A stretch of DNA of 32,598 bases. Source: a virus. This document shows, piece after piece, positions 1-30,787 of the stretch. The position numbers and the translations under genes are program-made. The stretch covers positions 1 to 32,598 of the IMG/VR virus record IMGVR_UViG_3300031707_004040; one strand, written 5' to 3'. The notes under the pieces were generated by a model, which saw nothing but the letters and a program-made list of their open reading frames with translations, searched no databases and had not been told where the DNA came from. Each line of letters begins with the position of its first letter. Position 1 is the first letter of the stretch.

Positions 1-868
1 TTCCACCGGCGGCCTCCACATAAAGGTTGCCGAGGATGCTCAGTGTACGCGCCCCGTCGCCGGTCGTGATTGTCAGCGTCCGGTCCGCGGTCAGGTTGCT
101 GCCGGGCGCGATGATGAGTTCGTGCGAGTCGTCGATGTCGCGCAAGTGCAGGCCGGTGTTGTTCAGCGTGATCGCCAGCCCGGAACCAGCGAAGACCAGG
201 TGAACCGCCGCGCTCATGGCCATCTCGACGCGCCCGATGTTCAGGCTGGCGAGCTTGACATGCCAGGTCTGGCCCTTGGCGCTGATCGGCAGGTCAACGC
301 GGGCCTGGAGTGGAGAGAGCATGGCGAAGCGGGTGCCGATGGCGTGGAGTACGACCGCCGTGCCGTACCAGCCGCGCTGGAACCCGGTGAGCCGGTAGCC
401 GCCGGCGATAGGCGTGGCGTCCACGAAGCTGCATATCTCGTCGCCGATCAGGCACAGGTTGACTCCGGCCTGGCAACTCGCCGCGTCGGTAGTCACCAGC
501 GTTCCGGGCGAGGCGGTTATGTCAATATCACAGGTGGCGGCCGGCTGCCATGTGCCAGCGCCCGCCGCCAGCGCGGTATCGAGTTCGCCGATGATGCTGC
601 GCTGCGAGGTCTGCGCCAGCAGCGCGTAGCTCACGTCGTCGTAGGACAGGTAGACGTTGGCGCCCGCCCAGGGCCCGGTAGAGGCATTCGGGTTGCCCAG
701 GATGAGGCGGGCAATCACATGTCCCTGCGCCATATCCGCGGGCTCCTCCCAGAGCCAGCCAACGGTCGCGCCGGGGTCGGACGTGAACTGGCCCGGCCGG
801 GAGCCGGCGAGGCCCGCCCCGCTGATGTTGCGCTGTATGGGATATGGCCAGATCGGGTCGTCAGGCAT
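1..868 (-). CDS. Phage tail hub/tip protein, second half (3' end beyond window)
   Basis: The minus-strand frame is open from an ATG at 868 to the left edge, about 289 codons without a stop, so the C-terminus is missing. The protein starts MPDDPIWPYP. Around residues 140-185 it carries a segment of the type LIGDEICSF, then YRLTGFQRGWYGT and a following H..GTRFAML. That pattern (E-I, aromatic, L.G..RG..GT, H..G) is typical of the C-terminal half of GTA-orf15-like/phage tail hub proteins. The hub gene at 6412-8037 lacks this half, so the two may be one gene split by the intervening glycan genes. The ATG has only a weak upstream GGGG. Its plus-strand complement also reads open but is a shadow. 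Tail function is fairly sure; the split is inference. Confidence 0.75.
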   Translation of the reverse strand, partial: MPDDPIWPYPIQRNISGAGLAGSRPGQFTSDPGATVGWLWEEPADMAQGHVIARLILGNPNASTGPWAGANVYLSYDDVSYALLAQTSQRSIIGELDTALAAGAGTWQPAATCDIDITASPGTLVTTDAASCQAGVNLCLIGDEICSFVDATPIAGGYRLTGFQRGWYGTAVVLHAIGTRFAMLSPLQARVDLPISAKGQTWHVKLASLNIGRVEMAMSAAVHLVFAGSGLAITLNNTGLHLRDIDDSHELIIAPGSNLTADRTLTITTGDGARTLSILGNLYVEAAGG

Positions 869-936: not shown

Positions 937-1260
937 ATGAATGCGAAGATCCCCTGGGTGATCGTGGTGGCTATAGCGATCGGGCTGGCAGTGATCGGGT
1001 GGTTCGGGCATCGAACAGTGCCGACCCTCTCGGCCGACGATCGGGCCATTCTTGCGGATGCCGCCAAGGGCATACCTGCCCGCTCGCTCTCCCCTCTGTC
1101 GCCCGCCGAACGAGCGGAACAGGAACGGGCAAGCGCCCGCAATGCGGAATATTTGAGGGCAAGTGTCATCAAGGCCTCCAGCACCCGGCCTCCTCGCACC
1201 CGTCAAGCATCGCGCACCTCCTCTAGTTCATACCTTCGGGCACCATCTGCCGCGAGGTAA
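937..1260 (+). CDS. Small single-pass membrane protein, plus strand
   Basis: A 107-aa frame on the strand opposite to all its neighbours. It begins MNAKIPW, followed by one clear hydrophobic segment (about residues 5-23, VIVVAIAIGLAVIGWF), then a polar Ala/Glu/Arg-rich helix-like stretch (about 30-78). The last 25 residues are Ser/Thr/Arg-rich and less protein-like. The ATG at 937 is preceded by GGAGGCGAGAGAG and a possible extended -10. Codons in the first 80 positions mostly end in G or C, as expected in this genome. Its 3' end overlaps the convergent SPASM/nucleotidyltransferase gene by 58 bases. A holin- or spanin-like lysis role is possible from size and topology alone, but nothing specific supports it. 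The 869-1202 interval holds no convincing minus-strand gene. Confidence 0.5.
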   Translation: MNAKIPWVIVVAIAIGLAVIGWFGHRTVPTLSADDRAILADAAKGIPARSLSPLSPAERAEQERASARNAEYLRASVIKASSTRPPRTRQASRTSSSSYLRAPSAAR

Positions 1261-2696
1261 TGCTTCATCGGCTCACGCCCCGCATCCGACCAGATGCCCG
1301 CCTGTATCCGCTCGTTGTATCCCTCTACCAATTGGTAATCGAATAGCATCGCCTCGTCGCCGGGCCAATGCCACTGGCAGGCGCGAGTGGAGAACTGCTT
1401 GCCCGGCTGGTCGAAGCGTTCTCCTATCGTGATCGGAACCGGCTCTACCACGTCCAATGGACTGACGAGGCTCGCCAGCGATCTGCCGCCGAGCAATCCG
1501 TATACGCGGTCGGCGATGCCAAGCAACCAGAGTGCACGCCAGGCATGAGAGTCGCGCCGATGCAGGTCGCGATCGGCCCAGGCATTTCGCGGCGCAAGGT
1601 CGCCATGGGCCTCGTTCACCTGCTTGAGCAGTTCCGAGAACGCGTCCCATGACCAGGCTTCGTGTTGGGTCCATGCAGCGAGGCGGGCCAGTGCCCACAA
1701 AGGCAAGCGGCGGGCCTCGGAAACGACATTGTTCCAGGTATGATAGCCAGCCATCCTCAGCACGTGGACTGGAAGGGATGGGATTGGCATCTGCCGGCCG
1801 AGAATCTCGACGAATAGCGGTGGCTCATCCCAGATGGTATAGGCCGAGCGCCCCACATCATTGGTGAGCGGGTCCAGTTCGCAGCCCAATCCGATTTCCA
1901 GGCCTCCCGGCATTGTCAGGGTAGACCAAGCCGGGAACCATCTATGTCGCCTTGATCCCGTTGCCTCGGCTATCGCGTCAATCTCATCTTCCGAATCCAC
2001 CCGCACTTCGATGTCAATGGCATCCCAGGAGCGCGGGAAATGCTCAATGCTGAGCGGAGCATACTGTACGGGACCGCCATGGACGACGTACTCAATCCTG
2101 CGATTCTCAAGGGCATCGCAGAACTGCCCTACCTGTACCCACCATGACGCGTTCGCACCATCCAGGTGATCGAGGTATCGCTGGCAATCTTCCCGCACGA
2201 TGTTCGGGGCGACGCCATCCATGCGCTCGTCGCAGAGCCGCCAGGCGACAACGCCGTCGAGTTGGTGGAGCGGGGCGAGCCGTCTCAGCGCGCCGTAGTC
2301 GAGCGCGGTCCGGGCGATCTGCACCATCGCGGGCCACGGAGGATTCAGCATCGCGGCGAGTCTCAGCCACTCTCTCTCGGGCGTCGAGAACACCGATCCT
2401 TCGGGCAGCGTGGCCCTGACAGGAGCCGCCACCATCCGGGCCGGCGGCCTCTCAACGCGATTGATATAGCCGAGGATGCAGTCGCGACAGGCTTCCGGCG
2501 GGTCGCCCGCGAGCGTCTGCTCGCGCAGCTTCGCGTAGCCGCGCTCCCATATTCGCAGTGCATCCTCGCGGTTCAGATCAGCCAGCGGCGTCAACCTATT
2601 CGGGCTGAAGCAGCACGGATAGACCGTGCCATCCGCGAGAACGTAGATGGAGCGAAACGGCATATTGCACATGCTATGATCGGGGGCCGAGTCCAT
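1203..2696 (-). CDS. SPASM domain fused to NTP_transf_5-like nucleotidyltransferase
   Basis: 497 aa. Residues 1-80 look like a radical-SAM auxiliary SPASM domain: C10, then ADGTVYPCCF with C28 and C29, then C70-x2-C73. This domain normally follows a radical SAM core on the same chain and holds extra Fe-S clusters. Residues about 85-300 resemble the uncharacterised nucleotidyltransferase family NTP_transf_5: a helical region, then VVHGGPVQYAP (204-214) and RSWDAIDIEV (222-231), whose acidic pair D225/D228 is the likely metal site. The C-terminal 200 residues are unassigned. The start overlaps the radical SAM gene by 23 bases. AGGA sits 7 bases before the ATG, so separate initiation is possible. 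Joining the two frames across a C5 run would give one conventional radical SAM-SPASM protein. The substrate is unknown. Confidence 0.72.
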   Translation of the reverse strand: MDSAPDHSMCNMPFRSIYVLADGTVYPCCFSPNRLTPLADLNREDALRIWERGYAKLREQTLAGDPPEACRDCILGYINRVERPPARMVAAPVRATLPEGSVFSTPEREWLRLAAMLNPPWPAMVQIARTALDYGALRRLAPLHQLDGVVAWRLCDERMDGVAPNIVREDCQRYLDHLDGANASWWVQVGQFCDALENRRIEYVVHGGPVQYAPLSIEHFPRSWDAIDIEVRVDSEDEIDAIAEATGSRRHRWFPAWSTLTMPGGLEIGLGCELDPLTNDVGRSAYTIWDEPPLFVEILGRQMPIPSLPVHVLRMAGYHTWNNVVSEARRLPLWALARLAAWTQHEAWSWDAFSELLKQVNEAHGDLAPRNAWADRDLHRRDSHAWRALWLLGIADRVYGLLGGRSLASLVSPLDVVEPVPITIGERFDQPGKQFSTRACQWHWPGDEAMLFDYQLVEGYNERIQAGIWSDAGREPMKHYLAADGARRYELEEVRDA

Positions 2697-3330
2697 CGTT
2701 GATCCTCATGTCGGGCAGTGTCTCTACCTGTCTGCGCACACTATCTATGCGGTCCCATGCCTCGGCATTCTGAAGCGGGTCGGTTGCCCTAGAGCAGGGC
2801 TGTAAGCGCGCCCATGTCACGTTTCGTCCGCCAATGCCGTGCACGCGCTGAGCGATGGGGAGAAGTTGCGGTATGGTTTCGTCTATGACTGTAGTCGCGA
2901 TGTTCACAGCGATCCCAGCGGCGATGCAGTCGGCGACGTTGCGCCAGACCTGCTCGCTGTCCGAGCCCGGCTGTAGCCGCTCGTGCGTCTCCGCGTCGGC
3001 GCCATAGATCGAGATGGTAATGGTGCGCATACCGGCGGCATAGAGCTCGGCCGACACTTCGGCAGAGAGGAACATCCCATTGGTATAGGCTGTCGGGACT
3101 CCGCCCCGCTCCACGACGACCCTTACCATGTCCAAGAAGCGCGGGTGAAGCAGCGGTTCGCCCGCGCCGAATAGCGCCACTTCGCAGCCGGCCGAGATGA
3201 GGGGGAGAGTCCGCTCGAACAGTCCCCACTCCATCAGCAGACCATCCGGCCCCGCCTCCTGGTCGCACACCAGGCAGTGCAGATTACAGCGATGCGACAC
3301 TCCTATCATCACGAGCGTGGGCAGTTTCAT
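2674..3330 (-). CDS. Radical SAM enzyme core (lacks its own SPASM domain)
   Basis: 218 aa. The N-terminus has the radical SAM cluster-binding motif C15-x3-C19-x2-C22 (SHRCNLHCLVC). These cysteines bind the 4Fe-4S cluster that cleaves S-adenosylmethionine. FGAGEPLLHP at 54-63 is the GGEP-like motif that contacts SAM, and later ITISIYGAD and TTVIDET strands fit the partial TIM barrel. Length covers only the core barrel. The C-terminal Fe-S domain appears as the N-terminus of the next gene in another frame. The start ATG overlaps the TGA of the 974-aa gene (ATGA). The family modifies peptides, sugars or cofactors; given the HPr-kinase-like and glycosyltransferase neighbours, a peptide or glycan substrate is plausible but not shown. 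Confidence 0.85.
   Translation of the reverse strand: MKLPTLVMIGVSHRCNLHCLVCDQEAGPDGLLMEWGLFERTLPLISAGCEVALFGAGEPLLHPRFLDMVRVVVERGGVPTAYTNGMFLSAEVSAELYAAGMRTITISIYGADAETHERLQPGSDSEQVWRNVADCIAAGIAVNIATTVIDETIPQLLPIAQRVHGIGGRNVTWARLQPCSRATDPLQNAEAWDRIDSVRRQVETLPDMRINDGLGPRS
2682..2686 (-). other. C5 run at the radical SAM / SPASM frame junction
   Basis: On the coding strand the radical SAM frame reads GGC CCC CGA TCA TAG. Skipping one C of the five-C run (+1 shift, or a one-base deletion) gives GGC CCC GAT CAT AGC ATG, which runs directly into the SPASM frame and would make a chain of about 708 aa. CCC followed by CGA and an early stop would suit +1 slippage. A sequencing or assembly error, or a recent indel, is equally compatible. 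The downstream gene also has its own ATG and a possible ribosome site. Confidence 0.5.
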
Positions 3331-6251
3331 CCTCGTTGCAAAGCCTCCCAGTAGACTGCCGCCAGTGACTGCGCCGCCTCGGGATAGCTCGGAGGCCTCA
3401 CATTCGCCCAGCCGCGGCGGCGCTTCATCTCGGTGTCAATGGCCGCCGCGATGCTGTCCACGTCGTCGGGTTCGCACAGGCTGCCGACGCGACCGAACTG
3501 CTCGGCCGCCCAGGACCGCCGCGAGTGGACGATGTTGCAGCCCAAGGCAAGTGCGTCGAGCGTCACCTGCCCGAACGGCTCGAACTGGCTGGCGTTGACA
3601 TGGAGATGCGCGCGCCGGTACTCATCCCACAGTTCGTCGCCGCGCAGGAAGCCGAGGAACTCCGCGCCATCATACCGCTCGACCGCGCGGAGGAACTCAT
3701 CGCAGTAGGGATCGTGCACCGGGTCCTCGTTGAAGCCCGCGAAGCGGATCGGCAGATCGAGACGCTTGCAGGCCTCCAGCACCGCGATCTGTCCCTTGTA
3801 GCCACACACCTTTCCGGCCATGAACACCGAGGCCGATGCCTCAACCTGTCCATTCGGCGAGAAGAGCACCGGGTCAACGCCCATCGGCACGACACGCAGA
3901 CGCGCCTTCTTCTCGGGGAATCGCTCGGCGATGAAGGCGGCCTCCGATTCGGAGTAGCACACGATGTAGTCGGCGAGGCCGATGGCCCTGCCCATGATGT
4001 CGCGGGTCGGGTATCTATGCGTGATCGCCGACAGCACCACCGGCCGCTTGCCGTCGCAGGTCTCGGCCGCCTCCCATGCCCAGTCGTACTGGTGGTGGTG
4101 CAGGTGTATGAGCTGGTACCCATCGTGCCACCAGAACTGCCCGCCGCGCAGGTCAGCGTAGATGCCCAGCGCCCGCAGGCCGCGCCGGTAGCCCTCGATC
4201 TGCGTGAAGTCGCCGCCGAAGCCGGGCCATGAACCCCGCCAGCGGTCTCTATTGAGCATCAGCACCCGGAATGCCGCCACCTCCCGGCGCGGATCGCTCA
4301 CTGCCTGGTAGCCGAGGGAGTCGGGCGGGCCGAGGTCGAGGCAGCAGGCGCGGTCGGTATGGTGCTCCTGCCAGCCCTCGGTCGCGAGCCAGCGGCGCAG
4401 CCCCTCTACGTTGCCCTCTCTGGCCTCCCTGCAGGCGCTCAGGCGCACGAGCGCACCCGGCCCCCACCCAGGCACCATCCTACTGTCTGAGCGCCGCCTG
4501 TAGCCCCACACGAGGGCTGCGGCGGGGTGCCAGGTGAGGTGATCTACCAGGGCGTCCACGTAGGCGGGAGTGAGAGCTAGTGAGGGCGAGCAGATCAGGG
4601 CGAAGTGGGCATCGCAAGCCCGCCCAGCCAGTTCGTGCTCCGCGCAGCGGCCCTTGATCTCGTATCGGGTGCCGTCGCCCACATCGGGGCCGGAGCCCAC
4701 CAGCAGCACTTCGCGCCGGTGGAGACGAACCGCCCTGACCGTGCCGCTCTCCTGCTTCAGGTGACTCGCCCCGAGGCCCCAGTAGGCGACGACTTCGCGC
4801 CCCCGCTCCGCCATCTCGATGCAGAACTGGTGGTCATAGCCGCCCGCCACGTAGCTGTCACCCGGTGGCGCGAGGCTCGCCGCATCGAACTGATCGCGCG
4901 GTATCAGCGCGCAGGAAAACGAGAGGCCGCCCACGCGCTGAGGCCCACTGCCTGGCATGGCCTCTTTCCCCGCCACGCCCTGGGCGACGATGAATCGCGG
5001 GTCGGTTGTCGGCCCGGCCGCCTCATAGACCCAGGCCAACGCCGTCGCTTCTCCGTGCATGTAGGTGTGCGCTACCGGGATTCCCACCATATCCCGGCCG
5101 GCCCGCCGCTGCCATTCTCCCAGCAGCGCGGCGAAAGCACCCTCATCCGGCAGCACATCGTCCTCCAATGCCAGCAGCATCTCGATCTTCTCGGGTACGC
5201 GGGTCCGCATCTGCTGCCACAAGTACGCCACCTGCCGGTCCTTGACGCCGACCCGGTGAGTGTCGCGCCAGAGTTGGAGGTTCGGGTGGGTCGCTCGCAC
5301 TACTGCCGCCGCCTCGTGGAGTGCCGCCCAGAACGCCTCATCCTGTGAGTTGCAGAGCCAGAGCAGGTGTGCACCCGCGGGGATGCCCTGGCGCAGGAAT
5401 GACTCGAGCCATTCGCCCAGCACCCAGGCCTTGCCGGAGAAGGGCGTCAGCACCGCCATCGATGGGCAGGCGGGCAGCACCGCCCGGCCAACTCGCTCAC
5501 GCAGGTCTGCGGGCTTGCTGCCCCAGCATTCGATCTTCCATCTGTCGCCAAGCACGTCGATGCCGAAGCCCTCATCTATCCCGACGCCGCGGTGTGATAG
5601 GTTCACCGCCTCGCCCTTGTCGGCCAGCAACACGATCCGCCTCAGCATCCCCCCATCGCTCGCGTCGTGCCCTAGCGCCTGGGGGCTGATTCGCACCTTC
5701 CCGTTGAAGTCCAGCGTCTCGCCCAGCAATTCCGGCCATCGCTCTGCCATCTGCTCGGGCAGCAGGTGGAACTCGCGGCTCCACGGATAGACCATGCCAG
5801 TGCCCGGATCGAGGAGTACCGCGTCGTCGCTGAGATACTGCGCCCCCGCGTCCAGCATCGCCAGCAGCACGGTCGTCTTGCCGCTACCGGACTCCCCCGC
5901 GATCAGCGTCACCGCTCCCTCGTGCGCCACCGCTGCAGCATGAAGGAACAGCCACCCATCTGGCTTGCAGAACCGCGCTACCGCCAGCCACAGCCAGTCG
6001 AGCACGGCGCCCGCCATGAACGACGGATCGGGTATCCATGCCTGGATATGATCGGGCTCGCACAGTACCAGCGCGTCCATGACCTCCAGCGCGCCGTTCC
6101 AGTCGGGACGCTCGCCGCCCCGCGTGGCCTCGACGGTGATCGTGCGCGCCGGCGCCGCCCCCCACCCGCACCGCTTCCGCACTGCCAGTTCTAACGCAGG
6201 CCAGTTCGTTTCGAGGCGCATGGTCCCGATTGGGGTTGGGTACTCGGTCAC
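3327..6251 (-). CDS. HPr-kinase-like P-loop domain fused to two GT-A-like regions and a GT4 glycosyltransferase
   Basis: 974 aa with at least three recognisable parts. Residues about 60-290 resemble HPr kinase/phosphorylase C-terminal domains: FLHAAAV, Walker A GESGSGKT at 119-126, and YLSDDAVLL with SDD at 141-143. Residues about 292-510 look like a GT-A (GT2-type) transferase, with ALEDDVLPDEGAF holding the acidic triad E363-D365 and GGYDHQFCIEMAERG near 470. Residues about 515-660 may be a second, degenerate GT-A unit. Residues about 660-974 are a GT-B/GT4 module with VVPMGVDPVLFSPN (787-800), an AGKVCGYKG strand-loop and EPFGQVTLDALALG, where the usual E-x7-E ends in Asp (E891, D899). The GTG start overlaps the upstream TGA. 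I infer phosphorylation and glycosylation of a shared target; the target is unknown. Confidence 0.8.
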   Translation of the reverse strand: MTEYPTPIGTMRLETNWPALELAVRKRCGWGAAPARTITVEATRGGERPDWNGALEVMDALVLCEPDHIQAWIPDPSFMAGAVLDWLWLAVARFCKPDGWLFLHAAAVAHEGAVTLIAGESGSGKTTVLLAMLDAGAQYLSDDAVLLDPGTGMVYPWSREFHLLPEQMAERWPELLGETLDFNGKVRISPQALGHDASDGGMLRRIVLLADKGEAVNLSHRGVGIDEGFGIDVLGDRWKIECWGSKPADLRERVGRAVLPACPSMAVLTPFSGKAWVLGEWLESFLRQGIPAGAHLLWLCNSQDEAFWAALHEAAAVVRATHPNLQLWRDTHRVGVKDRQVAYLWQQMRTRVPEKIEMLLALEDDVLPDEGAFAALLGEWQRRAGRDMVGIPVAHTYMHGEATALAWVYEAAGPTTDPRFIVAQGVAGKEAMPGSGPQRVGGLSFSCALIPRDQFDAASLAPPGDSYVAGGYDHQFCIEMAERGREVVAYWGLGASHLKQESGTVRAVRLHRREVLLVGSGPDVGDGTRYEIKGRCAEHELAGRACDAHFALICSPSLALTPAYVDALVDHLTWHPAAALVWGYRRRSDSRMVPGWGPGALVRLSACREAREGNVEGLRRWLATEGWQEHHTDRACCLDLGPPDSLGYQAVSDPRREVAAFRVLMLNRDRWRGSWPGFGGDFTQIEGYRRGLRALGIYADLRGGQFWWHDGYQLIHLHHHQYDWAWEAAETCDGKRPVVLSAITHRYPTRDIMGRAIGLADYIVCYSESEAAFIAERFPEKKARLRVVPMGVDPVLFSPNGQVEASASVFMAGKVCGYKGQIAVLEACKRLDLPIRFAGFNEDPVHDPYCDEFLRAVERYDGAEFLGFLRGDELWDEYRRAHLHVNASQFEPFGQVTLDALALGCNIVHSRRSWAAEQFGRVGSLCEPDDVDSIAAAIDTEMKRRRGWANVRPPSYPEAAQSLAAVYWEALQRG

Positions 6252-6415
6252 AATCCCAACACCTCATCCATCGCTTGGATCGCCGCTTCCGCCGTGGTCT
6301 CTCCCGCCGCAACCAGTAACCTCAGTATGCGTAGGCGAGTCAACGCCCAAGGGGCGAGCCTGATATGCGCCATGTTGCCGACCAGTTTCACATCCACAGC
6401 AGGCCGCGCTTTCAT
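6248..6415 (-). CDS. Small helical protein of unknown function
   Basis: 55 aa, starting MKARPAVDVK and ending IQAMDEVLGL. It is mostly predicted helix (LAPWALTRLRILRLLVAAGETTAEAAIQAM) with no cysteine, signal peptide or recognisable domain. The ATG overlaps the hub gene's TGA (ATGA) and has a good GGAGGAG just upstream. Its own TGA overlaps the GTG of the 974-aa gene, so it sits as a coupler between the tail hub and the glycan island. Size and placement are all that can be said. Confidence 0.65.
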   Translation of the reverse strand: MKARPAVDVKLVGNMAHIRLAPWALTRLRILRLLVAAGETTAEAAIQAMDEVLGL

Positions 6416-8037
6416 CTCTCCTCCACTCCGTCGAACACGAATGTCCCGTCCGGGTTCTCGGTGATCTTCACGATCCGGTAGACCGTGCCTTCGAGCGCGT
6501 AGGCCGCGGCCCCGATCATGTCGAAACTGACCAGGATGCCCGGCTCGTACCACGCTCCCGCCGGCCCCATCCCCCACTCGGCGCTCGCCGGCCCTGTGAT
6601 CCGCGCCCACAGTAACTTGCTCGCGATCTTATCCGCCATTGCCCCGGTGGTGACACCGTTCAGGGAGAGCTGCTCACGGTAGAGCCCGCGCCGTCCGATG
6701 TCCCAGTCATCGCGCCGCTCAGCCACGCCACTGTTGTAGCCGTCTGCACGATCGAGGTACTCGACCGTCACGGCGTTGGCGAACTGGCGGTCGGGTGCCC
6801 GGTTGTACTTGGGCACGTAGCCATCGAGCCATTCCCAGGGCTGTATCTGGGTGTAGGGCAGCAACTCTCGGCTCGGACTGCGCCGACTGTGCAGGCGGAA
6901 CTTGCCCTGGCTGTAGACCAGCATCCCGTCGAAGTAGCTCAGCAGGTGCTCGATATGGGCGGTGCCCGGCTGCGAACTCTCCAGTACGGGAGAGCAGAAC
7001 GTACCGTTCCAACTGTTGTGAGAGGCCTCTTCGTAAAACGTCGCCTGGTCAAGATCGGTTGCGGCGAAGCCCAGACCATACCGTGGGTTCGTGAGAAAGT
7101 CCGCCAAGCAGACGGCGGGATTCATATCGCCGTTCGCGTCCTCGGGCCAGTCGTCGAGTTCGAGCGCGGCGATTGCCGCGTTGTCGGCCATCACGTCGGC
7201 AGTCGTGCGGTGGATCTCGAACGTGAAGCTCGGGATGCTCGTGACGTAGCCGAGCGGATAGGTCTGGAGAACCACATAGGCGACGCCGGGATAAGCCGCA
7301 TCGGGCTGGTCGGAGGTACCGAGCGGCCGAACCGTGTTGTTGGCGGCGGAAAGGTCTTCCGCCACGCCTCCGGGCGCGAGCGATACCTGGAAATCATAGC
7401 CCGACAGATTCTTGACGTAGTAGGTGATGCCCGCCGTCACGCCGCCGATGGTCGCGCCGAACTCGAGCGGGTCGTCGTTCTGGAGGCCGGCCCGCGCCGT
7501 CAGACCCGGCGAGTGCACCAGGTCGCTGGCGGCGGCGAAAGAGCAGGAAAACCAGGATGTGCTGAGGTGCCCTGAGACATAGGCGTTCGCGACCTGGTCG
7601 GGCTCGCCTTGCTCCCAGTCGTAAGCGAGAGCATCCATGTCGACCACGTCACCCGCCGCCCAGACGTTGAGCAGATTACTGACCCGGCCCTCGCATAGCG
7701 CGATGGCGAGGCCGACCGTGTAGGTATCCTGGCCGGTCCCCTTCGCGCCCCCGCCCGACCCGCCGCTGTCCGCCGCGTGCGTCTGGAAATCGCCGTACCA
7801 GATGATCGTGCCGGCGACGCGGTTGCGGCCGTACACGATCGGCAGCACCTGCCCCTTCTGCGGCGCCGAGAAGCGCAGGCCCCCGACGCGCATTGCTTGG
7901 CTTTGCGAGCCGGGCGGGTACAGATAGGAACCGAGTAGCGCCCCGACCATCATGCCGCGGCGGATGGCTTCCGGGTTGCCGCCCGAAACGAATGCGCCGA
8001 CCGCGCCGCCGATGATTGTCAGGACGGTCTGGGCCAT
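6412..8037 (-). CDS. Phage tail hub / host-specificity protein, N-terminal half
   Basis: 541 aa. It begins with a glycine-rich hydrophobic segment (TIIGGAVGAFVSGG), then the signature LPIVYGRNRVAGTIIWYGDF-type region (about residues 66-84) found near the N-terminus of GTA-orf15/lambda-J-like tail tip proteins. The end (EPGILVSFDMIGAAAYALEG..YRIVKITENPDGTFVF) matches the Phage-tail_3-like segment that is normally mid-protein. It follows tape measure, DUF2460, DUF2163 and NlpC/P60 genes in the same order as gene transfer agents. The ATG overlaps the preceding TAA (TAATG), with GAGG upstream. Hub proteins of this class are usually much longer, and the missing continuation resembles the gene at 1-868. 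Confidence 0.85.
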   Translation of the reverse strand: MAQTVLTIIGGAVGAFVSGGNPEAIRRGMMVGALLGSYLYPPGSQSQAMRVGGLRFSAPQKGQVLPIVYGRNRVAGTIIWYGDFQTHAADSGGSGGGAKGTGQDTYTVGLAIALCEGRVSNLLNVWAAGDVVDMDALAYDWEQGEPDQVANAYVSGHLSTSWFSCSFAAASDLVHSPGLTARAGLQNDDPLEFGATIGGVTAGITYYVKNLSGYDFQVSLAPGGVAEDLSAANNTVRPLGTSDQPDAAYPGVAYVVLQTYPLGYVTSIPSFTFEIHRTTADVMADNAAIAALELDDWPEDANGDMNPAVCLADFLTNPRYGLGFAATDLDQATFYEEASHNSWNGTFCSPVLESSQPGTAHIEHLLSYFDGMLVYSQGKFRLHSRRSPSRELLPYTQIQPWEWLDGYVPKYNRAPDRQFANAVTVEYLDRADGYNSGVAERRDDWDIGRRGLYREQLSLNGVTTGAMADKIASKLLWARITGPASAEWGMGPAGAWYEPGILVSFDMIGAAAYALEGTVYRIVKITENPDGTFVFDGVEER

Positions 8038-8468
8038 TAGGCCTCGCCCCTCACTCGATAAGCTGCGACGAACCGGCGCACCAATGATGCCGAGTCAATG
8101 GGATCGCAGCGCACCTGATCCTTGGTCGCCGCGTGCACGATCTTGCCGTCGCCGATGTAGAGCGCGCAGTGGGAGGCGGTTCTTCCGTACCGGTACACGA
8201 GGACATCGCCAACCTGCCAGGGCTCCTGCACCTCATCGCAGTGCTCGCGTAACCCCTCGATCAGCAACTCGCGCCGCTGGTGGATATGCCAGTCGGGCGG
8301 GTAGCAGGGCACTATCGCATCGACGCCGAGGAGCCCGACCGCGCGCAGCACCGCTGCCACTAGGTGGATGCAGTCCACACCGATGCCTCGGAGGGAGGCA
8401 GCATGAGAGAACCGCGTGCCTACCCAGGCCAGCGCCTCGGCCCTGATAGCCTGGTCGAGCGCGCTCAC
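8037..8468 (-). CDS. NlpC/P60-family tail peptidase
   Basis: 143 aa, a size typical of phage-tail NlpC/P60 proteins. Catalytic Cys33 lies in GIGVDCIHLVAAV. The conserved His100 is in TASHCALYIGDGKIVH, and His112 is the likely third residue. Members hydrolyse D-Glu-meso-DAP or similar bonds in peptidoglycan and sit at the tail tip to open the wall during DNA entry. The GTG start overlaps the TGA of the DUF2163 gene (GTGA), with a strong GGAGG 7 bases upstream. Position between DUF2163 and hub genes equals gene 14 of the Rhodobacter GTA layout. Confidence 0.88.
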   Translation of the reverse strand: MSALDQAIRAEALAWVGTRFSHAASLRGIGVDCIHLVAAVLRAVGLLGVDAIVPCYPPDWHIHQRRELLIEGLREHCDEVQEPWQVGDVLVYRYGRTASHCALYIGDGKIVHAATKDQVRCDPIDSASLVRRFVAAYRVRGEA

Positions 8469-19496: not shown

Positions 19497-19712
19497 CTAG
19501 GTCTCCTCTGCCGGGATCGTCCCAGCTATCTCCAGGCACGGCACATGTACGATGCAGTCCGTGCCGCCCTGTGCGTTCGGCTTATTCTCAGTCCAGGCGC
19601 CGACAGGTTGCCACTCGCCATCCTTCAGCTCGACAGGTATCGCCCGCCGCCCTGCCACCAGGTAGTGCTTGCCCTCGTGCTCGATCACGCGCCCAATGGA
19701 TTCAGGTGCCAT
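19497..19712 (-). CDS. Small hypothetical protein
   Basis: 71 aa, MAPESIGRVIEHEG at the start, with strands KHYLVAGRRAIPVEL and IVHVPCLEIAGTI. Compact, β-rich and soluble, with two cysteines late in the chain (TDCIVHVPC). The start lies inside the 3' end of the tandem-repeat gene (11-base overlap) and the gene runs almost to the next start, so it is translated with the head-completion genes. No family is recognised. Confidence 0.65.
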   Translation of the reverse strand: MAPESIGRVIEHEGKHYLVAGRRAIPVELKDGEWQPVGAWTENKPNAQGGTDCIVHVPCLEIAGTIPAEET

Positions 19713-21572: not shown

Positions 21573-22934
21573 CTACCCGGCCTTCCCGGCCGCGACCGCG
21601 CGACGATGGTCCTCAAGCGCCTCGCGGGTCGGAAAGGAAGGCCCGCGGCCATCGCGGTAAGTCATCGTCACGCTCGGTTTGATCTCGGTCGGTCCGGTCT
21701 GTACCTGCGTCTCCTGCGGTTCTGCCACTGGCGTCTCGTCCGGCTCCAGCAGTTCCACCAGCCCGCGCCGGAGCAGATTCCGTGCCTGGTCGGTTCGCAA
21801 CTCCACCACCTCACCCGTCTTGGCGATGCCCGCCAATCTGCGCAACGCCCGCACTCTCGCCATGCCCGTCTCCTTTATGCTCACCGGCAGGTCGCCCGGC
21901 CGGGGCTGCTCGCGCTCTCGCGCCCGCCACTCCTCGCCGATCCGCACCAACTCAGCCTCCAGCGCGTCCATCTGCGCGGTTAGCTCCAACTCACCTGATC
22001 GCTTGAGCGCCGCCGCCGAGACCTCTGTATAGGCGGCCTCATCGTCGAGCGCCCGAATCGCCTCGACCCACTGCTGCGGCTCGTAGCGGTCGGCGAAGAT
22101 GCCGGCCTCGCCCAGTGACTCCACCAGCCCAGGCGTCGGGTGTGCAATCGTCGGGATGCCGCTGGCCGCCGCCTCGATCCCGATGCGCCCGAAGCTCTCG
22201 GTCCAATACTTGCCGCCCGGGGCACCGAGGTCTTGGCTCGGCATCAGGATGATGCGCGCACGTCGGTATATCTCCCGCGGGTCAGTGCAGTGCTCCATGA
22301 TCTCTGCGTTCGGCGGCAGCGGATTGGGGACGATCTGCCCTCCCCAGCCACCCTTGACGCCGATGAAGTGGTGATCGGGCATCCGTCGCGCCAGATCCCA
22401 GAATAGGTTCCCGCCCTTCTCCACGCAGAGATTGACGAGCACGATGGCGTCGCCCGTCTCCTCGACCCGGTAGTCTGCGGGCTCGATGAACGGGTAGACG
22501 ACCAGCGCATTGTCGGAGCGGCCCTTCGCCTGCGCGGCCTTGCGCACCCATTCCGAGTTGTAGACGGCGAGTTGCACCCGCGCTGGCTTCGCCTTGAAGT
22601 ATTCGAGCTGGCCCTCGTCATGAATCAGGTGCACCAGCGGCTTCTCGTAGGCCCGACATAGCGCCATCGCCTCGGTCGTCGCCTCGCCCTGCGTGGCGAT
22701 GATGTCCGCTTCCTGGTAGCGTCGGCGCTTCGCTACCGGCAGCGGCGCCGAGTACACATCGGTGATGCCGAATTGGCGCGCCCCGTGGCTGCGCGTAGGC
22801 TTCAGTTTGCCCTTCTGCAGCATCAGGCCGACCGAGTGCCCGCGCCTGCGCATCTCCTCCAGCACCAGGCACATCGTCACCACGCCGCCGCCCCAGCCCC
22901 AGCCCAGGTGGTACATGTGACCGAGAATCCTCAC
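21573..22934 (-). CDS. GT4-family glycosyltransferase with C-terminal phage-type domain
   Basis: 453 aa from the GTG that overlaps the methyltransferase stop (GTGA), with AGGAGAG ideally placed. An N-terminal Rossmann half opens GHMYHLGWGWGGGVVTMCLVLEEMRRRGHSV, the glycine-rich acceptor-side loop of GT-B enzymes. The donor half has VVYPFIEPADY, IILMPSQD and an intact E-x7-E motif (E246, E254) in TESFGRIGIEAAASGIPTI. Residues about 367-410 (ARVRALRRLAGIAKTGEVVEL..DQARNLLRRGLVELL) resemble a small module seen in phage virion genes, and the tail has Pro/Glu/Thr-rich sequence. It should transfer a nucleotide-sugar residue to an acceptor; the appended domain suggests recruitment to the particle. 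Next to a methyltransferase and the repeat protein. Confidence 0.83.
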   Translation of the reverse strand: MRILGHMYHLGWGWGGGVVTMCLVLEEMRRRGHSVGLMLQKGKLKPTRSHGARQFGITDVYSAPLPVAKRRRYQEADIIATQGEATTEAMALCRAYEKPLVHLIHDEGQLEYFKAKPARVQLAVYNSEWVRKAAQAKGRSDNALVVYPFIEPADYRVEETGDAIVLVNLCVEKGGNLFWDLARRMPDHHFIGVKGGWGGQIVPNPLPPNAEIMEHCTDPREIYRRARIILMPSQDLGAPGGKYWTESFGRIGIEAAASGIPTIAHPTPGLVESLGEAGIFADRYEPQQWVEAIRALDDEAAYTEVSAAALKRSGELELTAQMDALEAELVRIGEEWRAREREQPRPGDLPVSIKETGMARVRALRRLAGIAKTGEVVELRTDQARNLLRRGLVELLEPDETPVAEPQETQVQTGPTEIKPSVTMTYRDGRGPSFPTREALEDHRRAVAAGKAG

Positions 22935-24112
22935 CGCACTCTCCTCACGATGGCGAGCCCGTACTGCAACTCGCAGGTGTACTCTCCCGTCGCCAGCAAC
23001 CTGTCCCGGATCGCCGCGTCCACGCCCCACTTGTCCGTGCCTGCGTCGTGGAAGACCATGATCCCATCCGGCTCGACCCGTCGCGCCCAGGCTCCGATGT
23101 CGCGACAGACCGCCTCATAGGAGAGCTCGGCGTCGAGAAACAGCAGCCCGATCGCCGGGTCGACGAACCGGGACGCCTCGACGCTATCTGCCTGCAGGGC
23201 GATGGCCTGACTGTTCAGCCCGAGGTGCCCCAGGTTCTCTGCCCAGGCGGTATGAGCGGCAGGGTCCGCGTACTGCCGCCATGGCGCCCGCTCCCACAGG
23301 TCGATGCTGTAGATGAGCGCATGCCCGCCCGCCTGCGCGCCCGCCGCTAGGTAGCAGGTCGACTTGCCCTTGTAGGCCCCGATCTCGACGATGGCGCGGT
23401 CGCTCGGGACCTGCGCGGCGAGTGCGGCCAGCACCATGCCCTCCTCGGGCAGAATCTCGCCGTGGACTTCACCGCAGCGTCGGCGGAGTTCATCGGACAG
23501 CAGCGGTTTCGCACGCTTGCGGAACCAGGCCGAGTAGGGCCGAACAAACGGCAACTCCTCCCACTCGCCGGTGGGCCGGATTGATTCCGCTATCACGCGG
23601 TCGATGCCCGGCCAGCCATCGTTTCGGGCGTCGTGCATCATCAGCAATCCGCCCGGCACGAGGTGGGGCGTCCATGCCTGAAAATCCGCCAGCACCTGCT
23701 CGTATTCGTGGCCCGCGTCGATCACCAGCAACCCGATGGGCTTCTCCCATGCGGCTGCGGCCGCGATGGTATCGGAACAGATGAGCGTTACGAGATGGCC
23801 CACCCCGAAGCGGTCGGCCCATGCCCTGGCCATGCTCTCGTTGTCCGGCGCGTCGTATTTGTCGCCCTGGCCGCTGGACTGCGAGCCGAACAGGTCAACG
23901 CCGAACACCGGGACGCCATGGGCGAAGTTCGAGCCGCAGGCGAGGCTCGTAACGCCCTGGCCGGCGAAGACGCCGAGCTCGACGATGGAGTTGGGCGGCT
24001 GGACCTCCATCGCATAGCGTAGCTTGCTCTCGCTCTCGGCCGCGGACGCGCCACCGATCGTCCCCAAAAACTTGAGCGCGTCCTGCACCTCGTCAGTCTC
24101 TACCGCCAGCAT
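22931..24112 (-). CDS. Tandem class I SAM-dependent methyltransferase
   Basis: 393 aa. Two similar halves. First half: SIVELGVFAGQGVTSLACG (motif I), then GLLVIDAGHEYEQVLADFQ and PGGLLMMHDA. Second half, from about residue 205: AIVEIGAYKGKSTCYLAAG, then GLLFLDAELSYEAVCRDIGA and PDGIMVFHDAG. Each has the Methyltransf_24-like order: motif I, D.....Y strand-loop, and an HDA motif. Both halves look intact, though DAGHEY becomes DAELSY in the second. The start is the ATG at 24112 with GGAGAG just upstream; a longer frame would begin inside a hairpin. The stop overlaps the GT4 gene start. Such families methylate sugars and small molecules or hydroxylate them in the cephalosporin hydroxylase group; the substrate here is unknown. 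Confidence 0.83.
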   Translation of the reverse strand: MLAVETDEVQDALKFLGTIGGASAAESESKLRYAMEVQPPNSIVELGVFAGQGVTSLACGSNFAHGVPVFGVDLFGSQSSGQGDKYDAPDNESMARAWADRFGVGHLVTLICSDTIAAAAAWEKPIGLLVIDAGHEYEQVLADFQAWTPHLVPGGLLMMHDARNDGWPGIDRVIAESIRPTGEWEELPFVRPYSAWFRKRAKPLLSDELRRRCGEVHGEILPEEGMVLAALAAQVPSDRAIVEIGAYKGKSTCYLAAGAQAGGHALIYSIDLWERAPWRQYADPAAHTAWAENLGHLGLNSQAIALQADSVEASRFVDPAIGLLFLDAELSYEAVCRDIGAWARRVEPDGIMVFHDAGTDKWGVDAAIRDRLLATGEYTCELQYGLAIVRRVR

Positions 24113-24139
24113 GATCTCTCCAGTCAACTTGCAATCTCC

Positions 24140-24176
24140 GGGGCCGGCGGGCAAAGGAGCAAATCCCGCCGGCCCC
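24140..24176 (-). other. Perfect 12-bp hairpin after the major capsid gene
   Basis: GGGGCCGGCGGG (24140-24151) and CCCGCCGGCCCC (24165-24176) are perfectly complementary, with a 13-base loop. It fills the gap between the capsid stop and the tandem methyltransferase. No T-tract follows, so it is a poor intrinsic terminator. It could protect the capsid mRNA 3' end or damp transcription into the accessory genes. Confidence 0.6.
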
Positions 24177-24209
24177 ACATGACCCCAGGATGCGAGTCGT
24201 TAGCTGTCG

Positions 24210-25520: not shown

Positions 25521-25559
25521 CTTGCGTCTCTCTTTCCGCCCCGTCATGGGGCAACTAGG

Positions 25560-26823: not shown

Positions 26824-27420
26824 TCAGTCTCCCGTCTGCTGCGAATTGGGCTGCAAGCGAGACGCCAGACACAGTGATCCGAGCGCACCATGGAAACCGC
26901 GGGCGCGCAGCACCAGTTCCCATCCTGCACTCGCCGGGAACGCACGCTCCCACATCTCCAGCCACGTCTGTTCGCTCAGCGCGCAGGTGTGGTAGGGGCT
27001 GGCGTCCAGGTTGATCTCGCAGAACACCAGGTAGCGGCTCACCCGCTCCATCTCGCGCAGGATGCGCTCGGCCTTCTCTGCGTCGGGCATATGCTCTAGC
27101 AGGTGGAAGCCGGTCACGAGGTCGAACGACCTCATCCACTCCGCAGGAAGCCGTGAAACGTCGCCTTCAATGTATCGCTCGGGACACAGCAGCCGGGTGT
27201 GCTTCTCCTTGCGCATCCAGTCCATGCCGCGAGCATCCACGCCGGCTGCGCAGAGCGTCGTGGCGAAGCGGTTGTTGCCGCAGCCCAGGTCGAGCGCGGT
27301 GGCGAGTTTCCGCCCGCGGGCGAGCCACTGGCAGACGCCAACCCATATGTCGCCGCGGTTCACCACGAAGTAGTAGTGATCGGGCAGCAGCTTCTCGTAC
27401 TCTTCGGGTCGCTGCAACAC
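26824..27420 (-). CDS. Class I SAM-dependent methyltransferase
   Basis: 198 aa. I start it at the GTG sharing a base with the upstream TAG (TAGTG), with GGGAGAG 4-6 bases before; the longer frame is Arg-rich shadow of the neighbour. It has ATALDLGCGNNRFATTL (motif I, about residues 40-57), RGMDW (motif II), and FDLVTGFHLLEHMPD (motif III-IV region), then YLVFCEINLD. This is the Methyltransf_11/23-type layout, common for enzymes acting on sugars, lipids or small metabolites. The stop is one base from the protease start. It pairs with the capsule-type transferase upstream, so a glycan substrate is a reasonable guess. Confidence 0.83.
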   Translation of the reverse strand: MLQRPEEYEKLLPDHYYFVVNRGDIWVGVCQWLARGRKLATALDLGCGNNRFATTLCAAGVDARGMDWMRKEKHTRLLCPERYIEGDVSRLPAEWMRSFDLVTGFHLLEHMPDAEKAERILREMERVSRYLVFCEINLDASPYHTCALSEQTWLEMWERAFPASAGWELVLRARGFHGALGSLCLASRLQPNSQQTGD

Positions 27421-28607
27421 TAGCTCTCTCCCAGCAGGCGCCGCCACTTGCTCAGCAGCCGAGCCGGCGCGTCTGCCCACAGCTCGCCGCCCCAGAAGCT
27501 GGCGCTGCTCCATCCCGGCAGCCACGCGCCCTCGGGCGTCAGGTACTGGACCATGCGGGCAACGTGCTCGCACACCGCAGTGCGCTCATCCTCGGTCTGG
27601 GGGGCCGCGTCTTCCTCGCCCCATTCGTCTCCCGCCCGCCTGTCGCGGGTGAAGCCGCGGCCTGAATGCGGACCCTCACCGAATGAGTAGGCGGGGCGAC
27701 CCGCCATCGCCGCCTCCAGCAGAACGTTCGAGTTGATCGCCGCCACCGCGCCGACCAGTGGAAACAGCCCGTGCAGGTTCTCATTCGCGCCGAGCCACAT
27801 CCCGCCCTTGGCCTCGATCTCGAGCCGACAGTGCTCGCGGCGTTTCGCGAATGCAGGCTCCCACTCGACCCGCGCGGCGACCGGATGGCGCTTGACCAGC
27901 ACCGGCCCCGGCCACTTGAGGCAGTGCCGGATGAAGTCGCGCTGGCTCTCGTGCTCGACGCGGTGATAGACCGAGGCCCCGTCCGTCTCCAACTGCATCG
28001 CCACCAGCAGGGTTCCCCCGCGCCGGCAGAACCGCTTCACCGAATCCGCAGGCTCCGCACCCTGCGCGTGCTTGGAGAGTCCGAGGCGCCGCCATTTCTC
28101 GATGACGCTGGCGCCTGCCTCGGCCTCCACCCGCAGGTGGTCGATTCGGTCCCAATCGCTACGCCCGACCACGTAGCCGCCCACCGGGTCGAAGATACGC
28201 GTCCGCGGCAGCCAACCGTGCTCGACGTGCATAATCGGAATGCTGCGCTCTCGCGCTAGCATCGCCCACGCGTTCTGGTCGGCGTTCCCGCAGTTCCACA
28301 ACAGGATCGCCGCGGGCTTGCGCTTGTCCAGGCACCGGCGAGCGCCCGACCACAGCCGGGCGACGTTCTCCAGGATCAGCCTGCGGTCCGCGCCGCTGAT
28401 CGACTGCCGACGCAGTTCCTTCGGCGCTAGCTCTGCCAGCACCGCCAGGTCCTCGGTCTCGGGGCGAGCATGGCGCCAGTCAACGAAGGCCAACTCCGGC
28501 GGATGAGCGGCGGCTATCGGTGCCGGCACTTGGGCCAGCCAGCCCGCCGCTGTCTCCGACGAGGGAGGCGCTGTGGCATGGTAGTCAACCGGAATAATGA
28601 TGCTCAC
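27420..28607 (-). CDS. Capsule-polysaccharide-type glycosyltransferase (KpsC/KpsS-like)
   Basis: 395 aa from a GTG overlapping the portal stop (GTGA), with GGAGGGGG upstream. Features shared with the Capsule_synth (PF05159) Kdo-transferase-like fold: AAILLWNCGNADQNAWAMLARERSI-type strand-helix (about 99-123), MHVEHGWLPR (126-135) at the position of the family's acidic-His-Gly motif, VLVKRHP (236-242), and AAINSNVLLEAAMAGRPAYSFG (289-310), the late S..L.EA...G.P signature. KpsC/KpsS link Kdo to phosphatidylglycerol in group 2 capsules. Here the acceptor is unknown, and a virion or host-surface glycan is possible. Similarity is moderate; a more distant GT-B relative cannot be excluded. Confidence 0.65.
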   Translation of the reverse strand: MSIIIPVDYHATAPPSSETAAGWLAQVPAPIAAAHPPELAFVDWRHARPETEDLAVLAELAPKELRRQSISGADRRLILENVARLWSGARRCLDKRKPAAILLWNCGNADQNAWAMLARERSIPIMHVEHGWLPRTRIFDPVGGYVVGRSDWDRIDHLRVEAEAGASVIEKWRRLGLSKHAQGAEPADSVKRFCRRGGTLLVAMQLETDGASVYHRVEHESQRDFIRHCLKWPGPVLVKRHPVAARVEWEPAFAKRREHCRLEIEAKGGMWLGANENLHGLFPLVGAVAAINSNVLLEAAMAGRPAYSFGEGPHSGRGFTRDRRAGDEWGEEDAAPQTEDERTAVCEHVARMVQYLTPEGAWLPGWSSASFWGGELWADAPARLLSKWRRLLGES

Positions 28608-30787
28608 GCGCTCACCCCCTCCACCAGGTGAGCTAGGGCACATCGACAGTTACAGACCTCCGCCGCCGGCGCGCCCGGCGCATTCGGGTACAGCAGACCG
28701 TTGCTGAAGCTCTCATGCAGGCCCCGCATCTCTCCGTCCACCGCCGCATGCGAGTCTCGCACCCGGTCATCGCGAGAGCTGATCCACTCCTTCAGGATGG
28801 TGGCACCCGTCTGCTTCTCGACCTGCAATGCCCCCATGTTGTGGCCGAAGTTCACCGCCGCCCCGGCCTCGGTGCGCGCTATCAGGAAGCTGCGGCTGCG
28901 ATCCATCGCGGTATCGCCCTCTCCCGCCCAGTCCGCGTAGGATGCCCGAATCCGCTTGGCGATGTCGGAGGCCCCTTCGTTCTGTGACAGCCCCTCGGCC
29001 ACGCCCTCGGCTATCGCGTCGCGCGTGGTCTGGCTCATCGCCGTGACCTTCTGCGCCGTCTCTGAGCGGATGAAGTGCTCGACCGCCGGGTCGTCGAAGT
29101 CGAAGGCCCAGGCGCGCTCCTTGCGCTCGAGGTCCTTGCGCTCCAACTCGGGCAACGCTGACTTCGGGATCGCCCTAATGATCCGCCGCCCCTCGAGCGT
29201 CCCGAAGTGGACAATCATCTGCTTGTAGGCTTCCGCCAGCCAGGCCGCCCACTGCGTCTTGTTGCGCTCGATCGCGCCGGTGATCGCCGCCTTCCCCCCA
29301 TCCTCGAAAGCCGCCACCACCGCCTCGCCCTCGGCCGTGAACAGCGTTGAGATCTGCTTGGCGATCCGGCTTTCCCACCGCGCCCTATCATTGTCGAACG
29401 CCTTGTAGTAGGCCGCCTTCTCGTCTGCCGCCATGCCCGACTTCAGTTCAAGTGCTGGCAGAGCGGTCTTCGGTAGCTCGGAGATCGGCGCATAGCCCAG
29501 CGTTGGCGGCTTGCTCCCGCCCCACGGCAGATCCCCGCCCTCGACCTCGCCGAAGCCAAGTTCCAGCCGCTGGTTCACCCCGTTGAAAGGCACCCCCATA
29601 TCCCAGATGCTCTTAGCGGTGGCCACCCGCGCGGCCCACAGTTCCCGCATCGCCGGGACTTGGCTCACATCGTAGCCGATACGCAGCGTCTTCTTGCTCG
29701 CGTCCTTCAATCCCTCGGGATTCCAGTAGGGCGTGAGCCGGAGATCGAGCGCGTCCTGGATGTCATCGCAGGTCGGGATGACGGTATCGGTCCAAAACAA
29801 CTGCCGCGCCGCCGTCAACTCGCTGCCGCCAGCGAGACTGTTGCTGCGGTCCGCCGCCACCAGCACGACGGGCACCCCGAAGACACCGCATATGGTGGCG
29901 ACGTTGAACAAGCGCGACTTCAGGAAGTCCATCTCGACCGGGCTCAGGCTCATCTGTGTGTAGCTGGCGTCGGCGCCCAGTATCCAGGGCAAGTGCGCGT
30001 GCTCGGCCCCCAGATGCTGCTCCTTGACCTGCTCCTGTGCGTCCTCCCACTGCTCAGTCGTGAGCGGGTGCTTGAACGCGAACAGCCCGTCAGTCACCGC
30101 CCGGTTCTGCAGGCTCACTTTGTTCCAGCGCACCGCCTCGACATCGGTATCTACCGTCTGCATCGCCGCCCGCAACGGCGCCAGTCCCCAGAACAGGTCG
30201 CCCGGATCGACGAACATCAGATGGCAGACCTCCTCCGGTGTGAGGTCCTGCTTCTTGCTCCCCATCCGGTACTCGTAGCGCGCCACTTCGAGGCCACTGC
30301 CGGTGGGCACGGGCTTGATCTGGTCGGGCATCAGAGGAACGATGTTCTGCGGGATGCCCGCGCTGTTGCGCTCCAGGTGCCAGAGCGCGTTGCCGCCGAG
30401 GTCCAGATGATAGAGGGTCCGCTCCATCAGGTCCTGCCGGCTCATCTGCGGGTTGGGCCGCGACAGCAGATTGCTCAGCGGGTGCAAGTCATCGCGCTCC
30501 CATTCGTCCTCGCCCACGCGCTGCTCGGCAAACCAGGGCACTGAGGAGATGGCGCTTGCGCGCTTGCGAACACAGGTATAGACCCACTCGCTCGCCTTGA
30601 GCCCGTTCTGGATCGCGTTGGCGGTGCTCCAGTCCGTCCAGATCGGGCGGTTCGCCTGCTGGGGAGTCACGAGGGCGAGCTGCTCGCGGGCCTCGCGCAG
30701 AGCCGCCTTGGCGGCGGCCACGCGCTGCTGTGGCGTGAGCGGCCGGCTCTTGCCCAGCATTCGCTGCAGCGTCTCTGTCAGGCCCAA
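28604..30787 (-). CDS. Portal protein fused to Mu gpF-like minor head domain
   Basis: 727 aa from a TTG (LGLTETLQRMLG), with GAGG upstream. Residues about 30-400 follow the HK97-type portal family (PF04860): SEWVYTCVRKRASAISSVPWF, HPLSNLLSRPNPQMSRQDLMERTLYHLDLGGNALWHLERN, PLRAAMQTVDTDVEAVRWN and VFGVPVVLVAADRSNSLAG. Residues about 560-720 match the phage Mu F-like domain (PF04233): ARTEAGAAVNFGHN, WISSRDDRVRDSHAAVDGE, and the terminal NCRCAL motif. A portal ring of twelve chains is expected at the capsid vertex. The MuF domain is usually a separate minor capsid or ejected protein, so this is a natural fusion. It is followed by the capsule-type transferase with overlapping stop/start. Confidence 0.92.
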   Translation of the reverse strand: MGLTETLQRMLGKSRPLTPQQRVAAAKAALREAREQLALVTPQQANRPIWTDWSTANAIQNGLKASEWVYTCVRKRASAISSVPWFAEQRVGEDEWERDDLHPLSNLLSRPNPQMSRQDLMERTLYHLDLGGNALWHLERNSAGIPQNIVPLMPDQIKPVPTGSGLEVARYEYRMGSKKQDLTPEEVCHLMFVDPGDLFWGLAPLRAAMQTVDTDVEAVRWNKVSLQNRAVTDGLFAFKHPLTTEQWEDAQEQVKEQHLGAEHAHLPWILGADASYTQMSLSPVEMDFLKSRLFNVATICGVFGVPVVLVAADRSNSLAGGSELTAARQLFWTDTVIPTCDDIQDALDLRLTPYWNPEGLKDASKKTLRIGYDVSQVPAMRELWAARVATAKSIWDMGVPFNGVNQRLELGFGEVEGGDLPWGGSKPPTLGYAPISELPKTALPALELKSGMAADEKAAYYKAFDNDRARWESRIAKQISTLFTAEGEAVVAAFEDGGKAAITGAIERNKTQWAAWLAEAYKQMIVHFGTLEGRRIIRAIPKSALPELERKDLERKERAWAFDFDDPAVEHFIRSETAQKVTAMSQTTRDAIAEGVAEGLSQNEGASDIAKRIRASYADWAGEGDTAMDRSRSFLIARTEAGAAVNFGHNMGALQVEKQTGATILKEWISSRDDRVRDSHAAVDGEMRGLHESFSNGLLYPNAPGAPAAEVCNCRCALAHLVEGVSA

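Follow-up and report, generated by a model that had tools for sequence, protein, structure and literature searches.

The virus record IMGVR_UViG_3300031707_004040 encodes, within the 32,598-base window considered here (the whole stretch of DNA that was analysed), a single 974-residue polypeptide that joins a domain related to HPr kinase (HprK) to two predicted glycosyltransferase (GT) domains, GT-A and GT4, and whose gene lies inside the tail-tip gene. The recognised genes of the window are all on the minus strand, in a siphovirus-like head-to-tail order: portal, prohead protease, major capsid protein (MCP), connectors, major tail protein, tape measure, DUF2460, hub, NlpC/P60 and tail tip. Our preferred, though tentative, explanation is that the fusion and its neighbours form a late-expressed, protein-modifying moron cassette that would decorate a virion component, first of all the tail tip. 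What has been directly observed is which domains are present, how the operon is coupled, where the cassette is inserted, and that the kinase is kin to kinases encoded next to NTP_transf_5 or lasso-cyclase genes. The parts are known, and the novelty lies in their combination, in their place inside the tail-tip gene and in the link to lasso-type kinases.

Domain layout of the fusion protein

The fusion gene and its parts are as follows:

3327..6251, minus strand: the 974-aa fusion, with HprK-like kinase, GT-A, linker and GT4, in one open frame of even third-position GC content (GC3)
5478..6251, minus strand: HprK-related kinase domain, aa 1-258, from TIGR04352 and alignment with HprK relatives
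5928..5942, minus strand: HAAAV motif, aa 104-108, from sequence and alignment
5874..5897, minus strand: Walker A motif GESGSGKT, aa 119-126, from sequence and alignment
5823..5831, minus strand: SDD motif, aa 141-143, at the catalytic Asp position of HPr kinases, from sequence and alignment
4692..5477, minus strand: predicted GT-A (GT2-like) domain, aa 259-520, from hhalign
5157..5165, minus strand: EDD at aa 363-365, the putative metal-binding triad of the GT-A part, in register with the DxD region of GT2
4272..4691, minus strand: linker, aa 521-660, earlier called a second GT-A
3330..4271, minus strand: GT4 domain, aa 661-974, with PF13692, PF00534 and PF13439 over cut-off
3555..3581, minus strand: GT4 E-x7-D motif, aa 891-899 (E891, D899), from sequence

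The gene runs uninterrupted from a GTG start at 6251 to a stop at 3327, with a GC3 of 0.79-0.92 and one coding pattern across all 13 blocks of 75 codons. It overlaps a 55-aa open reading frame (ORF) by GTGA at its 5' end and a radical SAM gene by ATGA at its 3' end, and this uniform codon-position GC together with four-base overlaps at both ends makes a sequencing frameshift or a chimeric join unlikely. The first-pass annotation had described a single 974-aa polypeptide at these positions and had named a frameshift or assembly error as what might undo it; the intact frame and the coding signal throughout bear out the polypeptide and give no sign of a frameshift, the one correction being that the gene lies on the minus strand.

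In NCBIfam, the N-terminal domain matches TIGR04352 (HprK-related kinase A; E 2.8e-11) and TIGR04355 (HprK-related kinase B; E 8.9e-8), below the curated cut-offs (43 versus 200 bits for TIGR04352, and 14-16 versus 33.3 bits for the weak Pfam match to HPr kinase itself, PF07475). It is thus predicted to be a relative of HprK and not a member under the curated rule, that is, a divergent HprK-related domain lying well above chance. Alignment with bacterial relatives shows HAAAV, Walker A and SDD to be intact, and the domain has both a Walker A of the form G-x-SG-x-GK-[ST] following an HA[AS] strand and a [SA]DD motif, in keeping with the HPr-kinase-like N-terminus first proposed for this protein. 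In a tree, the domain forms a deep separate branch whose placement is without support.

For aa 259-520, comparison by hhalign with a 22-protein GT2 profile gave a score of 33.3 over 196 columns, the highest of 200 shuffles reaching 22.0, and it is this profile-profile comparison with shuffled controls that supports a GT-A domain. A direct family search of the same residues gave no match at E<=10 in Pfam or PHROGs, and no relatives of the GT-A part alone were found in viral contigs, 398 genomes, plasmids or phages; a match in a Thermus phage was dismissed as chance, since it runs antisense to an annotated gene. The C-terminus is clearly predicted as a GT4, since it passes the Pfam cut-offs (PF13692, E 4.4e-11, 43.7 versus 27 bits; PF00534, E 7e-11, 42.4 versus 26.4 bits) and carries the E-x7-D motif. 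Of the three glycosyltransferase regions originally proposed alongside the kinase, the GT4 and, on indirect evidence, the first GT-A are supported, whereas the second GT-A (aa 521-660) was rejected as unsupported, 4 of 200 shuffles reaching its score, which leaves two supported glycosyltransferase domains. The motifs GESGSGKT, SDD, EDD and E-x7-D were found as described, at residues 119, 141, 363 and 891-899, and the layout of HprK-like, GT-A and GT4 parts on one chain, as predicted from sequence, holds.

The cassette and its insertion point

The fusion is the second member of a cassette composed, in order, of the 55-aa ORF, the kinase-GT fusion, the radical SAM protein, and a protein combining SPASM with an NTP_transf_5-like domain. 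The cassette and the tail-tip halves around it (the tail tip being of the gene transfer agent, or GTA, g15 type) are the following:

6412..8037, minus strand: N half of the tail tip, PF13550 E 6.2e-15, phrog_1101 positions 13-458
6248..6415, minus strand: 55-aa ORF, coupled to the tail-tip N half on one side and to the fusion gene on the other, with no family match
2674..3330, minus strand: radical SAM core protein, 218 aa, PF04055 E 1.7e-15
1203..2696, minus strand: SPASM and NTP_transf_5-like protein, 497 aa, PF13186 E 8.9e-10, with its own ATG and an AGGA Shine-Dalgarno-like site
1617..2300, minus strand: NTP_transf_5-like domain with a degenerate active site, PF14907 E 3.6e-5 (within the record), below cut-off
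2..868, minus strand: C half of the tail tip, running off the contig, PF23666 Rcc01698_C E 3.7e-16, phrog_1101 positions 526-666

The N half corresponds to the first third of the GTA-type tail-tip family and the C half to a later part of the same families, and both align consecutively to one 752-aa tip protein of Brevundimonas phage Strzyga (the C half to its residues 435-661). As the two halves match successive parts of the Strzyga tip, the cassette sits between the halves of a gene that is single elsewhere. GTGA and ATGA overlaps chain the tail-tip N half, the 55-aa ORF, the fusion and the radical SAM gene.

The 55-aa ORF contains neither Ser nor Cys. The top NCBIfam matches of the radical SAM protein are peptide or cofactor maturases, among them ScmF (7.6e-14) and ScmE, and the fusion itself weakly matches ScmC (0.007). 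The NTP_transf_5-like domain scores 17.3 bits against PF14907 (cut-off 31.2) and 17.2 bits (E 2.8e-6) with a local profile, for which the best of 2000 shuffles gave 8.2.

The radical SAM core and SPASM ORFs overlap by 23 bases (2674-2696), with a run of five C inside the overlap, and may be either two coupled genes or one protein with a shifted frame. The GC3 of the radical SAM and SPASM/NTP_transf_5 genes (1203-3330) is 0.72-0.74, most phage genes here having 0.77-0.92 and the fusion gene 0.84. This lower value hints that these two genes were acquired separately or later; the fusion gene shows no such sign.

Relatives in phages and comparable bacterial systems

Within the reach of the searches the fusion stands alone, in collections from which close copies of the window's own record may be missing. 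Phages, plasmids, IMG/VR and GTDB contigs yielded nothing related to the entire fusion, nor was a fusion seen among 50 phage records with similar capsids or in about 800 genomes of Alphaproteobacteria and Pseudomonadota queried with parts of the protein. Six kin records (L296 to L301), found via the portal protein, share 55-82% identity in the portal and 65-92% in the MCP where seen; neither the fusion nor the SPASM/NTP_transf_5 gene was found in these six, all of which are fragments or mosaics. The first-pass annotation had known of no family with this layout, which agrees with the absence of a second HprK-like, GT-A and GT4 combination from the collections searched, and its question of whether the fusion recurs in other phages receives a negative answer from the phage collections and the six kin. 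The tail module of G808 is of another kind, and G810, with the tape measure and the beginning of DUF2460 in common, stops short of the tail tip. When the HprK motifs were used as a spaced DNA signature, just two IMG/VR contigs were retrieved, both set aside: one has its HprK-like gene beside actinobacterial host-type genes, not in a phage module (L202), and the other is without an HprK-like ORF in the stretch seen (L201). A profile search of viral contigs with the HprK alignment was swamped by P-loop proteins.

Bacterial genomes provide a context for the kinase. Among 385 genomes of Alphaproteobacteria, matches to the N-terminal half of the fusion occur in 131 and matches to NTP_transf_5 in 77, and HprK-related and NTP_transf_5 genes lie at most 1.5 kb apart on the same strand in 14. 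One HprK relative adjoins a lasso cyclase, and clusters in the literature contain such kinases, as the earlier annotation had stated; the co-occurrence with NTP_transf_5 that it also mentioned is mirrored here by the NTP_transf_5-like domain two genes downstream of the fusion. Lasso peptide clusters with EpsH bring HprK, nucleotidyltransferase and GT genes together as well. On Tistrella mobilis plasmid pTM1 (L009:7261-10357), PqqD, HprK-like and O-GlcNAc-transferase-like genes and small ORFs form a compact group with two methyltransferases upstream, an undescribed-looking cluster that may serve peptide phosphorylation and glycosylation.

Among the closest known systems are the lasso peptide HPr-kinase homologues PadeK, ThcoK and PsmK, the last with its partner PsmN, which share with the phage an HprK-type domain and an NTP_transf_5-like partner in the operon. 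In pseudomycoidin, the C-terminal Ser receives a phosphate from PsmK and hexoses through PsmN, although it is disputed whether the sugar transfer is the work of PsmN itself (PMC8498205; PMC9266682). The phage appears to have relatives of both partners, one joined to sugar transferases and the other to SPASM, with the kinase and nucleotidyltransferase domains in one operon, as in the pseudomycoidin-type cluster, their genes being one gene apart on one strand much like the alphaproteobacterial pairs, and the proposed phosphate, then hexose, on one residue would be a further likeness. Unlike in lasso systems, the phage kinase is fused to GT-A and GT4, its partner is fused to SPASM and has lost active-site residues, and the whole lies in a tail operon; no lasso precursor, B protease/RRE (recognition element) or C cyclase was recognised among the window proteins scanned, small ORFs being scanned in part. 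HprK-related kinase A (TIGR04352) is the closest profile match and has the same HAA, Walker A and SDD, though not the fusion to GTs. SynChlorMet (ScmC, ScmE, ScmF) likewise associates an HprK-like protein with radical SAM/SPASM proteins, but all scores here are under cut-offs, no ScmA/ScmD-like gene was recognised and the GT fusion is particular to the phage.

Modification islands, substrate and rival explanations

Three GT-bearing islands lie within the structural module of this phage, as in phage virion-glycosylation loci. Besides the cassette, these are:

21573..24178, minus strand: head island, with a tandem Methyltransf_24 protein (22931-24178) and a GT4 (21573-23030; phrog_26352), from family matches
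26824..28643, minus strand: portal-protease island, with a Capsule_synth-like GT (27420-28643) and a methyltransferase (26824-27573), from family matches

The methyltransferase/GT4 island after the MCP is kept in L296, L298, L299 and L301, with only the methyltransferase start visible in L297, and L300 ending before it; it is likely to be a capsid-modifying pair. The portal-protease island is more variable, the capsule-type GT being present in L297, L298, L299 and L301 and absent from L296, and the methyltransferase being found in L301 only. The MCP (24210-25586) and the major tail protein (15265-15846) of the window share a C-terminal -GS with those of all the kin examined, the preceding residues varying. 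Mycobacteriophage capsid and tail-tube C-termini bear glycans, according to Freeman 2023 as cited in PMC12619734, and the terminal -GS serines are for this reason candidate sites for the conserved GT4. As evidence for the kinase, the C-terminal Ser of these proteins was rejected: kin without the kinase keep -GS, and 21 of 107 MCP relatives end in Ser. The mycobacteriophage system resembles the present one in its phage-borne GT genes and in the proposed decoration of virion proteins (Freeman et al. 2023), and differs in that here an additional cassette sits inside the tail-tip gene.

What, then, could the fusion act upon? Its kinase, GT-A and GT4 activities are predicted from sequence motifs and profiles, its substrate is suggested by gene position, and the order of phosphorylation before glycosylation is presumed. 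With ATP or GTP as donor, the HprK-related domain would phosphorylate a Ser/Thr side chain in a protein or peptide, like related lasso-peptide kinases, the GT-A and GT4 domains would furnish that substrate with a short chain of sugars, and the radical SAM protein with its SPASM/NTP_transf_5-like partner would add or assist further peptide modification. A virion protein, the tail tip first, is the likeliest substrate because the cassette is translationally coupled to, and inside, the tail-tip gene, and its late-operon placement there likewise makes a target on the virion likelier than one on the host surface. We know of no kinase, radical SAM or SPASM part reported for mycobacteriophage virion glycosylation. 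If the proposal is true, a natural-product peptide-tailoring kinase has entered the modification of virus particles, with a protein kinase and GTs on one chain; the tail tip touches the host, and its decoration could affect adsorption or particle shielding, for which the cassette-free kin phages offer a natural comparison. A more specific form, in which a Ser of the tail tip or of another virion protein is phosphorylated and sugars are built on that very site with radical SAM help, is quite doubtful; if true, lasso-peptide-type chemistry would have been recruited for building a virus particle.

Several points weigh against virion decoration by the cassette. The support for the GT-A domain is indirect; three conserved residues are missing from the NTP_transf_5-like domain, namely the lysine of LKG, the leading Asp of DxD and the histidine of the ExH strand, and the domain may be inactive or altered, so that a PsmN-type step may fail here; two single-sequence AlphaFold runs (pLDDT confidence 37 and 34) gave no structure model; the cassette is dispensable for kin that have the same head islands and no cassette; and no relative was found against which to judge the conservation of the fusion.

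The cassette could instead modify a small peptide, either the 55-aa ORF or one encoded outside the contig, as a moron of the type of ribosomally synthesised and post-translationally modified peptides whose product hits the host or competing phages; it would operate in the manner of HprK/radical SAM systems for peptide maturation, lasso kinases and SynChlorMet among them. The HprK domain, radical SAM and SPASM beside a small ORF, the ScmF, ScmE and weak ScmC matches and the Tistrella cluster all speak for this, yet the 55-aa ORF has no Ser, Cys or family, PqqD/RRE, protease and transporter were not recognised in the window, and all NCBIfam scores are far under cut-offs, leaving it unlikely. The degenerate NTP_transf_5 partner suits a simpler virion glycosylation, in which the GTs decorate the particle and the HprK-like part is a nucleotide-dependent regulator or scaffold with no kinase activity; kin without the kinase keep GT islands, and the -GS ends offer a plausible C-terminal glycosylation site, but kinase motifs so intact are not expected of a decayed domain, and we consider this, too, an unlikely account.

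A host polysaccharide or surface protein might also be the thing altered during infection, blocking superinfection, in line with the similarity of the fusion GT4 to GT4s of host polysaccharide loci and with the EpsH-bearing lasso clusters; the late tail operon argues otherwise, no membrane anchor, flippase or polyprenyl-phosphate enzyme was recognised among the scanned window genes, and this is improbable. Phage DNA hypermodification pathways use P-loop kinases, radical SAM enzymes and GTs, which could here act on modified bases, but an HprK-type kinase, a cassette in the tail module and a window in which no base-modification gene was recognised (early genes lie outside it) make this scarcely credible. 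That the fusion or its phage location is a mis-join, as a unique sequence in a metagenomic record might suggest, is negligibly probable in view of the uniform coding signal, the four-base overlaps at both ends and the flanking tail-tip halves.

Other features were recorded along the structural module. The DUF2460 tail protein (9346-10971) is prolonged at its C-terminus by a long stretch that weakly matches DUF4082, and its N-terminal part is labelled 'glycoside hydrolase' in PHROGs. A 614-aa protein (19702-21546) has no family match, and its C-terminal two thirds consist of degenerate Ala/Leu/Pro/Thr-rich repeats that are not the same in kin L301; it is a possible candidate for a decoration protein. 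In L301 (IMGVR_UViG_3300035688_000439, 3894-8051), the portal gene is open for more than 1100 codons in one frame, with an in-frame insert of about 340 aa that has intein-like ends (C...HN-C) and a LAGLIDADG-like motif (LAGLVAGDG), and another such intein-like stretch, about 320 aa long with ...IIAQNC as its last residues, near the C-terminus, so that this one phage protein would appear to hold two intein-like elements.

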